Source of the DNA: Clostridia bacterium
GTDB lineage: Bacteria > Bacillota > Clostridia > Oscillospirales > SIG627
Assembly (NCBI GenBank): GCA_017440805.1
Contig: JAFSGN010000022.1
Coordinates: forward strand, 186,225 to 250,224
Direction: 5' to 3'
DNA: 64,000 bases
The notes below the pieces were generated by a model. The model saw only the letters and a program-made list of their open reading frames with translations. It made no database searches and was not told the origin of the DNA. Both the position numbers and the translations under genes were made by a program. How positions within the stretch are numbered: position 1 is the first letter of the stretch; each line of letters starts with the position of its first letter. Positions 32,569 to 63,814 of the stretch are shown one piece after another.

Positions 32569-32704
32569 TTGCGAATGTTTTTAGTGAAATCCTCGTTTCA
32601 CTCGGATGAAATTAAATCCGTCCTTTATCCGCCGAAGGCGATTTCATCACAAAGTGATTTCATCTGCGAAGCAGATTTATTCCGTCGCAAGACGGATTTC
32701 GCAA
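32569..32704. repeat. Composite hairpin element A
   Basis: The ends are the inverted 7-mers TTGCGAA and TTCGCAA. Inside, short hairpins alternate with a linker that reads GTGAAAT (32584) and ATGAAAT (32606) in the left half. In the right half it is inverted as ATTTCAT (32641, 32657), ATTTATT (32675) and ATTTCGC (32696). Hairpins include CGCC-GAA-GGCG (32630-32640), CAC-AAA-GTG, CTGC-GAA-GCAG (32664-32674) and CCGTC-GCAA-GACGG (32682-32695). The left hairpin at 32591-32605 pairs fully only on the minus strand, as CCGAGT-GAA-ACGAGG with two adjacent G-A pairs. No coding potential. Confidence 0.75.
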
Positions 32705-32739
32705 GTAAAAAAGCACCGACAAAAGTCGATGCTTTTTTC
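32705..32739 (-). terminator. Terminator hairpin beside element A
   Basis: AAAAAAGCA..CGAC and GTCG.ATGCTTTTTT pair around AAAA, with A and T runs on both sides, so it can act in both directions. It ends in CTTTTTTCTG like the other two in the cluster. Confidence 0.75.
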
Positions 32740-32775
32740 TGGCTTTCGGCTACATAATAGATGCAGATATATTCT

Positions 32776-32946
32776 ATGAAGCATTTGCCTGTCGGCAAAT
32801 ATGAAGTGACGGCAAAGCCGTCATGAAGTAAATTCGCTCTGCAAATTTATGAAGCAAAGCGTTCCTTAACGTTGCGATAGCAACACTTCATTAACGAAGC
32901 GTCTTCATTGTCGAAGACAACTTAATGTTCCGAAGGAACGCTTCAT
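32776..32946. repeat. Composite hairpin element B
   Basis: Four forward linkers ATGAAG(C/T) at 32776, 32801, 32823 and 32849 are followed by four inverted ones at 32885 (ACTTCAT), 32902 (TCTTCAT), 32920 (ACTTAAT) and 32940 (GCTTCAT). Hairpins between them include 32783-32800, 32808-32822, 32830-32848, GTTGC-GATA-GCAAC (32871-32884), TGTC-GAA-GACA (32909-32919) and GTTCC-GAA-GGAAC (32927-32939). The stem at 32830-32848 has a C-A mismatch on the plus strand that becomes a T-G pair on the minus strand. Confidence 0.8.
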
Positions 32947-32979
32947 TGAAAAAAGCACTTCTTACGAAGTGCTTTTTTC
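32947..32979 (-). terminator. Terminator hairpin beside element B
   Basis: AAAAAAGCACTTC and GAAGTGCTTTTTT around TTAC. It lies in a 38-base stretch identical to the tRNA-Lys terminator at 14752-14789. Confidence 0.8.
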
Positions 32980-33016
32980 TGTCTTTCACGTTCATAATAG
33001 ATGCAAGTATATTTTT

Positions 33017-33193
33017 GCGATATACTCGCTCTCGCTCGTACGATATATTTGCTTCGCAAATTCGATATAACTTCACTTCGTTTCGTTGCGATATGATATA
33101 AATTCCTTTTTCTCGTCCCGAAGGGACATATCGCATCGGAGATATATCGCGTACGAAGTACATATAGCAAATTCCGTTAGGAATTTATATCGC
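33017..33193. repeat. Composite hairpin element C (cleanest copy)
   Basis: Forward linkers: GCGATAT (33017), ACGATAT (33040), TCGATAT (33062), GCGATAT (33088). Inverted linkers: ATATCGC (33128, 33144), ATATAGC (33162), ATATCGC (33187). Hairpins between them in the right half are GTCCC-GAA-GGGAC (33115-33127), ATC-GGA-GAT (33135-33143), GTAC-GAA-GTAC (33151-33161) and AAATTCC-GTTA-GGAATTT (33169-33186). In the left half, read on the minus strand, they are ACGAGC-GAGA-GCGAGT, ATTTGC-GAA-GCAAAT and AACGAAAC-GAA-GTGAAGTT. All seven loops are GNA or GNNA type on the strand that reads outward from the centre. Confidence 0.82.
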
Positions 33194-33229
33194 TGAAAAA
33201 AGCATACTGAATTTTCAGTACGCTTTTTT
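33194..33229 (-). terminator. Terminator of tRNA-Arg
   Basis: AAAAAAGCATACTGAA and TTCAGTACGCTTTTTT pair with one mismatch around TT; the T run on the minus strand lies directly 3' of tRNA-Arg. Confidence 0.85.
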
Positions 33230-33233
33230 CTGA

Positions 33234-33307
33234 CCCACCCTACAGGAGTCGAACCTGCGACCTTCAGAATCGGAATCTGACACTCTATCCAGCTGAGCTA
33301 AGGGCGG
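33234..33307 (-). tRNA. tRNA-Arg (anticodon CCG)
   Basis: A 74-nt cloverleaf without encoded CCA (the genome continues TCA after the discriminator G). The acceptor arms CCGCCCT and AGGGTGG pair over seven positions with one G-T pair. The D-arm is GCTCAGCTGGATAGAGT. The anticodon arm is TCAGA-TTCCGAT-TCTGA with anticodon CCG, and the T-arm is GCAGG-TTCGACT-CCTGT. The identity Arg, reading CGG, comes from the anticodon. Confidence 0.93.
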
Positions 33308-33371
33308 AAATAATAAAATATTAAAAATCTCTTATTTTGTGCGTTTATATATACATATTATTGCCGTATAG

Positions 33372-35342: not shown

Positions 35343-35368
35343 CGCATTTCTGCGTGATAAACTATTAT

Positions 35369-35547
35369 ACCCCGCCGAGCCGTGTATCCGCGGATTAAAA
35401 ACCCTGCTCTCGCAAGGGCGGTGTCCCCTCATAAACTTTGCGCTCCCAACATCCGCCAATGGCGGGAGGTCTGCATCCCGTTTTCTGAAGACAGGACTCC
35501 TATCAATCTTTGTGGGTTTAAAACACGAAAGTCACGAACTAAGCAGG
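35369..35547 (-). ncRNA. ssrS: Probable 6S RNA
   Basis: A G+C-rich, non-coding stretch of about 180 nt on the minus strand between gdhA and the DUF1292 gene. The 5' end CCTGCTTAGTTCGTG pairs with the 3' end CACGGCTCGGCGGG over about 14 positions with few bulges, giving the long closing stem of 6S RNA. The middle has TCCCGCC-ATT-GGCGG as the apical hairpin and unpaired tracts on both sides that could be the promoter-like central bubble. A promoter-like TTTACT-17-CATATT lies just upstream and a terminator downstream. 6S RNA binds sigma-A RNA polymerase. Assignment rests on size, fold and general resemblance to clostridial 6S; exact ends are estimates. Confidence 0.65.
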
Positions 35548-35585
35548 AAAATATGCTGTTAAAAGTATATGCAGTAAAAAGATAA

Positions 35586-62323: not shown

Positions 62324-62352
62324 TTGAAAAAATGACAATATTATGATATAAT
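62324..62352 (+). promoter_or_regulatory. Sigma-A promoter of metK, upstream of the hairpin element
   Basis: TTGAAA and TATAAT with a 17-base spacer. The -10 box ends 325 bases before the metK start, so hairpin element D lies entirely within the metK leader if this promoter is used. Confidence 0.7.
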
Positions 62353-62377
62353 GATTTCAACAAAGTTGAAATTATTG

Positions 62378-62542
62378 ACTAAGTTTGCCTATGGCAAGTG
62401 AAGTTATCTTGCTATAGTGAAGTTTACTAAAGTAAGTGAAGTTCTGCCTTACGGCAGAGTGGCAAACTTGACTTCATTTTTGAGAATCAAAAACTTCACT
62501 GCGTTAGCAACTTCACTTTGAACTTTTGGTTCAAAACTTCAC
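62378..62542. repeat. Composite hairpin element D, in the metK leader
   Basis: Linkers: GACTAAGT (62378, degenerate) and GTGAAGT at 62398, 62417 and 62436, then inverted ACTTCAT (62471) and ACTTCAC (62493, 62510, 62536). Hairpins include TTGCC-TAT-GGCAA (62385-62397), 62443-62458 (minus strand loop GTAA), TTTTGA-GAA-TCAAAA (62478-62492), TGC-GTTA-GCA (62500-62509) and 62517-62535. The 9-mers AAGTTTGCC (62381) and GGCAAACTT (62461) are also inverted to each other and could close the left arm. Confidence 0.78.
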
Positions 62543-62677
62543 AAAACAGGGTGCATCCAAATCATTAACTAAGTTTACCCTGCGGCTCGATATGTCGCTG
62601 ACGCGACGAGAATTCATATATTCAATGATTTTAAAATAACTCAGAAAGATTTGTAAAAACAAAGAGGTACAATATAT
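62543..62677. other. Rest of the metK leader: direct repeat and orphan hairpin
   Basis: ATTAACTAAGTTTACC at 62564-62579 repeats ATTGACTAAGTTTGCC at 62374-62389 with two mismatches, so copies flank element D. A hairpin at 62594-62607 (GTCGC-TGAC-GCGAC; loop GTCA on the minus strand) looks like a single stray unit of the same type. The metK binding site AGAGG is at its end. No SAM riboswitch is visible. Confidence 0.6.
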
Positions 62678-63814
62678 ATGTCAAAAATACTTTTTACTTC
62701 GGAATCTGTAACCGAAGGACATCCCGACAAAATCTGCGACAGAATTTCCGACGCAGTTCTGGATGCGATACTTGAAAAAGACCCGACTGCCCGTGTGGCT
62801 TGTGAAACAACCGCAACCACGGGTATGATTTACATTATGGGCGAAATTACAACAAATGCAGTTGTGGATTTTCAGACAATTGCACGCGAAACTGTACGGG
62901 AAATAGGATATGACAGAGCAAAATATGGTTTTGACTGTGATTCCTGTGCCGTAATCAGTGCTGTCCACGGACAGTCCCCCGACATTGCGATGGGTGTTGA
63001 TACCTTAGGTGCAGGTGATCAGGGTATGATGTTCGGATATGCATGCAACGAAACTCCCGAACTTATGCCGTTGCCTATATCTCTGGCACACAAAATGGCT
63101 ATGAAACTTACCGAGGTCAGAAAAAGCGGACTTCTTACATATCTCAGACCCGACGGAAAAACACAAATTACCGCTGAATATGTTGACAGGAAACCTGTCA
63201 GAATAGATACGGTTGTATTATCAACACAGCACGATGCAAGTGTTGACATTGTGACTTTACGCCGTGACCTTACGGAAATGGTTATAAAGCCCGTAATACC
63301 CGAGGGACTTATGGATGAAAATACAAAGATTTTCATAAATCCCACAGGTAGATTTGTAATCGGCGGACCTCACGGAGATTCAGGTCTTACAGGCCGTAAA
63401 ATCATTGTTGATACATACGGCGGATATTCAAGGCACGGTGGCGGCGCTTTCTCGGGGAAAGACCCGACAAAAGTTGACAGAAGTGCTGCATACGCCGCAA
63501 GATATCTTGCAAAAAATGTTGTTGCATCCGGCATTGCGGACAGGTGCGAAATTCAAATCGCTTATGCAATAGGAATTGCACAGCCTGTTTCGGTTATGGT
63601 TGATACATTCGGAACTTCCAAAGTCGAGGATTCAAAAATTGCCGAAGTTCTGACTAAACTCTGTGATTTGTCACCTGCGGCTATTATTGAAAGATTTGAC
63701 CTGAGAAAGCCAATTTACAAGCAACTTGCCGCTTACGGTCATATGGGCCGCGAAGACCTGGGTGTCAAGTGGGAAGAAACGGATATCGCCGACAAAATCC
63801 GACAGATGATTTAA
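62678..63814 (+). CDS. metK: S-adenosylmethionine synthetase
   Basis: A 378-residue methionine adenosyltransferase that makes SAM from methionine and ATP. The landmarks are [18 protein letters not shown] near the start, [12 protein letters not shown] near residue 110, a central ISTQHD-like [10 protein letters not shown], and [24 protein letters not shown] with [23 protein letters not shown]. The length is slightly short for the family (commonly about 380-400) but all motifs are present. RBS AGAGG. It is behind an unusually long leader with hairpin element D. Confidence 0.96.

Follow-up and report, generated by a model that had tools for sequence, protein, structure and literature searches.

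Inverted arrays of 7-nt linkers and DNA mini-hairpins linked to S23p/IVP genes in Clostridia as probable non-autonomous mobile elements

Here we report a family of composite intergenic elements, four copies of which (elements A to D) lie in a window of 64,000 nucleotides from an Oscillospirales genome (Clostridia bacterium, GCA_017440805.1, contig JAFSGN010000022.1, positions 186,225 to 250,224). Each element is an array of 7-nt linkers alternating with short hairpins, first in forward and then in inverse orientation, with one linker type per element and stems that vary in sequence yet stay self-complementary. Several related arrays are located just 5' of a small open reading frame (ORF) of the PF05635/TIGR02436 family (four helix bundle protein, 23S rRNA IVP, S23p; hereafter IVP), and the linker type of an array follows the clade of its IVP. 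We consider elements A to D to be, most probably, non-autonomous, IVP-less copies of small S23p/IVP-type mobile elements, in which IVP would bind inverted arrays of heptads and DNA mini-hairpins. The four elements are as follows.

32583..32704, minus strand: element A, a degraded IVP-less array with the linker (G)ATGAAAT / ATTTCATC
32776..32947, minus strand: element B, an IVP-less array with the linker ATGAAG(C/T); also found by the pattern-free scan
33016..33194, minus strand: element C, a complete IVP-less array with the linker GCGATAT, 4 forward and 4 inverse; also a match of the scan
62378..62542, plus strand: element D, an IVP-less array with the linker GTGAAGT

The original prediction, made from the letters of the window, described element C as four forward linkers of the GCGATAT type (33017, 33040, 33062 and 33088) followed by four inverse linkers of the ATATCGC type (33128, 33144, 33162 and 33187), and the sequence bears this out. 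A short hairpin had been proposed for every gap of C; most gaps do hold a self-complementary segment, different from gap to gap, but the segments 33024-33039 and 33069-33087 are poor hairpins. Elements B and D share the plan of C, and A, which had been called less clean, is shorter than the others and partly degraded. The linkers are constant inside each element as proposed, but they are not unrelated between elements, since TGAAGT, ATGAAG, TGAAAT, CGATAT and TGATGT all fit a common theme close to YGAWRT. The claim that copies lack sequence conservation proved wrong: element D is 86% identical over 237 bp to a second copy in this genome (C12), a copy from a different family of the order matches it at 84% over 200 bp, and C is 71-87% identical to other sites of the same genome. 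Because the linkers are related and the copies conserved in sequence, the contrast with MITEs that had been drawn fails.

The predicted ladder, in which linkers 1-8, 2-7, 3-6 and 4-5 pair, was found unprompted by RNAalifold in 34 homologous arrays, and single-strand folding z-scores relative to shuffled sequences were -4.3, -7.5, -3.9 and -6.6 for A, B, C and D, respectively. A pattern-free scan for any 6-mer present at least three times at 14-45 nt spacing and followed by at least two or three inverse copies detected 6-7 arrays in 451 kb of the genome, some stretches of which were picked because they held known matches, and none in five dinucleotide-shuffled copies; it recovered B, C, D and 3-4 others. 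Rfam reported only tRNA and 6S genes in the window (the 6S RNA gene, RF00013, lies at 35365-35552 on the minus strand) and only tRNA in 15 loci. PADLOC gave no match for the arrays, no REP/RAYT match explains them, and our literature search found no paper on these hairpin arrays.

The gene that accompanies the arrays encodes IVP, a protein with a solved relative (2RLD). A family search detected IVP genes in 36 of 58 relatives, with a maximum of nine in a genome; the 14 control genomes contained none. The genome studied here encodes an IVP with a TGATGT array; at a contig end (C18, locus L048), the start of a second IVP gene is also present behind a short TGATGT array and is cut by that end. 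Using the IVP of this genome as a query against named genomes, we retained 80 loci, which without exception come from Oscillospiraceae or other Clostridia metagenome-assembled genomes; 76 of these loci had enough upstream sequence for an array test. An array was detected at most 400 bp 5' of IVP in all 76, compared with 3 of 760 shuffles and 11 of 420 control windows. Because the detector relies on exact 6-mers, it overlooks arrays whose linkers vary, such as those recognised by eye at L171, L175, L176 and L186, and its counts are therefore minimum values.

The usual order of an IVP unit is tRNA gene, terminator hairpin, array, promoter, ribosome site and IVP. In a more varied set of IVPs, many have arrays of other linkers upstream of or around the gene, and in four loci (L160, L269, L291 and L301) IVP lies inside the array, between the forward and inverse linkers. 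Array-IVP units also occur in tandem at L134, L169, L184 and L306, where the same array is found again directly 3' of IVP, or the end of an IVP gene precedes the first array. Elements A, B and C are 77-87% identical over 100-211 bp to IVP-linked arrays in relatives. BLAST aligned A with the arrays 5' of the IVP genes L297 (80% over 143 bp) and L304 (87% over 100 bp), B together with its terminator with that of L277 (81% over 211 bp), and C with the array preceding the IVP gene L302 of a same-genus genome (86% over 182 bp). The similarity of setting extends to the hairpins in front of the elements: the position of the one before A is likewise occupied in L047, L304 and L277, and the one before B is nearly identical to a hairpin preceding an IVP-bearing array at C10.

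Linker type and IVP phylogeny agree closely. On a tree of 57 array-bearing IVPs, whose linkers had been labelled by visual inspection of the arrays prior to tree construction, ten linker types require 9 changes, which is the minimum; shuffled labels required 37.7 on average, and none of 200 shuffles was as low. The same IVP clades recur in different host families, and a single genome (G001) contains three IVP clades with three different linkers; thus, the linker follows the protein and not the host. When the clade changes, so do all eight linkers of the array, a pattern indicative of linker recognition by IVP. Since linker type tracks IVP clade, recognition by this partner protein is probably the process, called for by the original prediction, that keeps linkers uniform within one element.

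The hairpins have the character of DNA structures. Among 570 inter-linker segments, 78% form at least four Watson-Crick pairs, compared with 11% after shuffling. Only 54 of 1614 stem pairs are non-Watson-Crick, and G·U and A·C account for 12 and 14 of these, respectively. The corresponding counts in the acceptor stems of tRNAs at the same loci are 74 and 4. Loops are mirrored between the two halves, with TNCG prevailing 97:1 in the forward half and CGNA 78:9 in the inverse half. GNA accounts for 95 of 157 triloops and is closed by C-G; it is the bottom strand that carries the GNA loops of the left half, and the top strand that carries those of the right half. Hairpins with GNA loops are exceptionally stable in DNA. 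The stems thus look as if they were kept as DNA inverted repeats and not as RNA, and the scarcity of G·U pairs together with the mirrored GNA loops favours a DNA-level role, or palindrome-perfecting repair, over RNA folding.

By DNA searches and reading of the matches, we found about 25 whole or partial copies in the 1.58-Mb genome, including chimeric copies that join two families (L017, L018 and L055). Copies in different families of the order are 80-91% identical and patchily present. The neighbours of elements A to D illustrate two insertion contexts (strands are given where assigned).

32707..32738: terminator-like hairpin (AAAAAAGC..GCTTTTTT), preceding element A on the minus-strand reading; from sequence
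32949..32978: terminator-like hairpin, preceding element B on the minus-strand reading; from sequence
33196..33229: tRNA-Arg terminator hairpin, at the foot of which element C begins; from sequence
33232..33308, minus strand: tRNA-Arg (CCG), upstream neighbour of element C; ARAGORN, Rfam
62324..62352, plus strand: metK promoter (TTGAAA, 17 nt, TATAAT), the host promoter behind which element D is inserted; same promoter without the element in G001
62350..62376, plus strand: leading hairpin of element D (TAATGATTTCAAC-AAA-GTTGAAATTATT)
62678..63814, plus strand: metK (S-adenosylmethionine synthetase), the gene downstream of element D; ORF named from its sequence, with orthologues in most relatives

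In the promoter context, TTGnnn, about 17 nt, TATAAT and 0-1 nt are followed by a hairpin such as GATTTCAAC-AAA-GTTGAAATC and then by the array. About 10 copies begin in this way, 0-1 nt 3' of TATAAT, and element D, 5' of metK, is such a case; the hairpin that leads D stands directly 3' of TATAAT in about 10 other copies. In the other context, the array begins at the foot of a hairpin that is a terminator or resembles one, and that often belongs to a tRNA gene. Here belong A, B and C, all on the minus strand and each right behind a terminator hairpin, C behind that of tRNA-Arg and A and B behind further terminators in the same row. An empty site is present at metK of the same-genus genome G001, where the same promoter is retained and TATAAT runs straight into a short leader with no element, placing D directly after the -10 box. 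At the tRNA-Arg locus of G001, the terminator is present and has no array directly behind it. The idea that the leading hairpin is always a pre-existing host hairpin does not hold for promoter sites, as the empty metK site has none. The preferred sites suggest that the elements insert into DNA that transcription has opened or folded.

Several further features were seen around these copies. Directly 3' of D, at 62560-62627 of the window, lies a second, rearranged half element in which a TGAAGT-type start (AAATCATTAACTAAGTTTACC) is joined to CGATAT-type modules. A conserved stretch resembling AATATCTTTTTTGTAGCCCATAGACAGAAAAAAGC is found 5' of the terminators of several elements (32739-32775 and 32980-33012 in the window; L047, L116 and L220), and degenerate copies of it lie between A, B and C. 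A short repeat, GGCATCTAAATCGTTCAC..TATAATG, occurs near several arrays in this genome and its relatives (L020, L024, L129 and L139). At L136, L146, L184 and L185, arrays begin at the foot of hairpins that end upstream genes, and the left arms of these hairpins reach into the stop codon region or lie next to it.

We propose the following mechanism. A complete unit consists of a hairpin, often a tRNA terminator, then four modules of a 7-nt linker and a mini-hairpin, then four inverted copies of these modules; the IVP gene of the unit lies either directly downstream of the array or between its halves. On the proper strand, each module presents a DNA mini-hairpin with a GNA loop beside a heptad, and an IVP oligomer would most likely bind the heptads next to the hairpins in single-stranded or extruded DNA. 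Because the oligomer would bind the heptads, all linkers of one element would have to fit one IVP clade; recognition would keep them uniform, while the stems would be free to change as long as they remain inverted repeats. IVP from complete units would work in trans on copies such as A to D, presumably together with a cutting-and-joining enzyme, and insertion would be directed to places of low harm, either immediately 3' of the -10 box of a promoter or at the base of a terminator hairpin. A more general version is possible, though we hold it only tentatively: a ring-forming four-helix protein with no known catalytic domain would recognise terminal inverted arrays of heptads and GNA mini-hairpins in single-stranded DNA and direct insertion into promoter-opened or terminator-folded DNA, with the 23S rRNA intervening sequences (IVS) as one branch.

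Several observations weigh against the interpretation of A to D as IVP-dependent mobile copies. None of the four contains an IVP gene, and D gave no BLAST match to IVP-upstream regions at 1e-4, its resemblance being one of linker and layout only. IVP itself has no known nuclease or recombinase motif. The 76 tested loci are not independent of one another and represent the nearest relatives of a single query, and among more divergent IVPs many have plain tandem heptads or nothing. The agreement between linker and IVP could be obtained from linkage alone, without binding. A deletion in the relative might account for the lone empty site; no target-site duplication was seen there, and none was sought systematically. 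The exact junction on the tRNA side is unproven because the tRNA terminator stems differ between the two genomes. Finally, the family is essentially chromosomal here: collections of phages, plasmids and viruses yielded few matches, namely two faecal phage contigs without annotation and 25 plasmids whose IVPs are distant, and no viral contig matched.

Among other explanations, the arrays might function as structured RNA, folding as a ladder when transcribed within 5' leaders or by read-through of tRNA terminators and regulating IVP or downstream genes, with IVP as an RNA-binding protein similar to Avd or a TRAP-like ring. Promoter-context copies do lie within the 5' leader of metK and other genes, the array at L302 is inside the IVP leader, RNAalifold found the ladder, and IVP has a weak profile similarity to Avd (E 0.0013, below the cut-off). 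We nevertheless judge this unlikely, as G·U is not commoner than A·C in the stems, compared with 74:4 in tRNA, and the mirror orientation of loops between the halves is not expected from selection on RNA loops. Moreover, in tRNA-context units the IVP promoter lies 3' of the array, so most IVP mRNA would not include it. This same position directly 5' of the IVP promoter, along with the tracking of IVP clade by the linker, would suit host operator arrays, in which linkers serve as double-stranded operators for IVP autoregulation and hairpins as spacers. Such a role seems quite improbable, since it leaves unexplained the roughly 25 complete or partial copies that lie, without an IVP gene, beside unrelated genes of this genome, the self-complementary stems with GNA loops, and the arrays that surround the IVP gene.

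Movement of REP/RAYT or IS200/IS605-type elements by a Y1 transposase would match the design of a hairpin with a short conserved tag, and Y1_Tnp is encoded in 25 of 58 relatives. However, Y1_Tnp (PF01797) is absent from this genome (G000, 94% complete) and from the array-bearing genomes G003, G008, G016, G017, G019 and G024, and the gene adjoining the arrays is IVP, not a transposase, which makes this origin very improbable. We give equally little credence to a passive origin through replication slippage and template switching at palindromes, with no dedicated protein involved: it would account for near-perfect stems without strand bias and for the chimeric copies of different families, but not for the linkage to IVP genes, the match of linker to clade, or the precise placement after -10 boxes.

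The IVP-based interpretation relates these arrays to several known systems. Like REP/BIME sequences with RAYT (PMC2817692, PMC3733652), they are short DNA hairpins with a short tag and have non-autonomous copies between genes. In contrast to them, this genome has no Y1 transposase, the tag is an IVP-clade-specific heptad, and eight hairpins form inverted arrays; on inspection the linkers read YGAWRT, and the GTAG or CGTC tag of REP is not found at the hairpin foot. With MITEs they share short, dispersed, non-autonomous copies, inverted halves and an enzyme presumed to come from larger copies, but their ends are arrays of heptad-hairpin modules and no transposase was identified. Avd of the diversity-generating retroelements, to which IVP has the weak similarity noted above, is a pentamer that binds nucleic acid; unlike in Avd systems, no reverse transcriptase or template repeat was seen beside the arrays.

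Outside this group, in other Bacillota and on plasmids of Nostoc, Dolichospermum and Bernardetia, IVP genes have tandem 7-bp repeats upstream, often with the inverse downstream. These loci share the IVP gene and the 7-bp repeats with the present units but have no hairpins between heptads; we know of no name for them, and our literature search found no paper on them. An apparent intermediate form is seen at L295, L298 and L305, where units of similar layout have plain heptads (CACTTTT, CACTATT) in place of hairpin arrays. The protein family and the 23S rRNA IVS are already known; S23p/IVP function and the origin of IVS have been open questions since about 1990 (PMC4990558). Xanthomonas S23p is a toroidal homopentamer, and the IVS of Coxiella burnetii, which encodes a PF05635 protein, has complementary ends, tandem heptameric GACAGAT repeats 5' of the S23p ORF, and a sporadic distribution suggesting transfer (PMC4990558). 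Elements A to D likewise have 7-nt linkers, and the linker ladder of the 34 aligned arrays corresponds to complementary ends. IVS, however, sit in 23S rRNA helices and are excised by RNase III, whereas the present elements are intergenic, with neighbours such as tRNA-Arg and metK, follow promoters or terminator hairpins, and have a mini-hairpin between heptads. Given the plain heptads at other IVPs and in the Coxiella IVS, the hairpin arrays can be read as heptad arrays with a mini-hairpin in each gap. They suggest a candidate ligand for IVP, its own heptad beside a DNA mini-hairpin, for which the ten linker types matched to IVP clades offer a built-in test of specificity, and they suggest a widespread intergenic class, landing at promoters and terminators, of which IVS-like elements would be one form.
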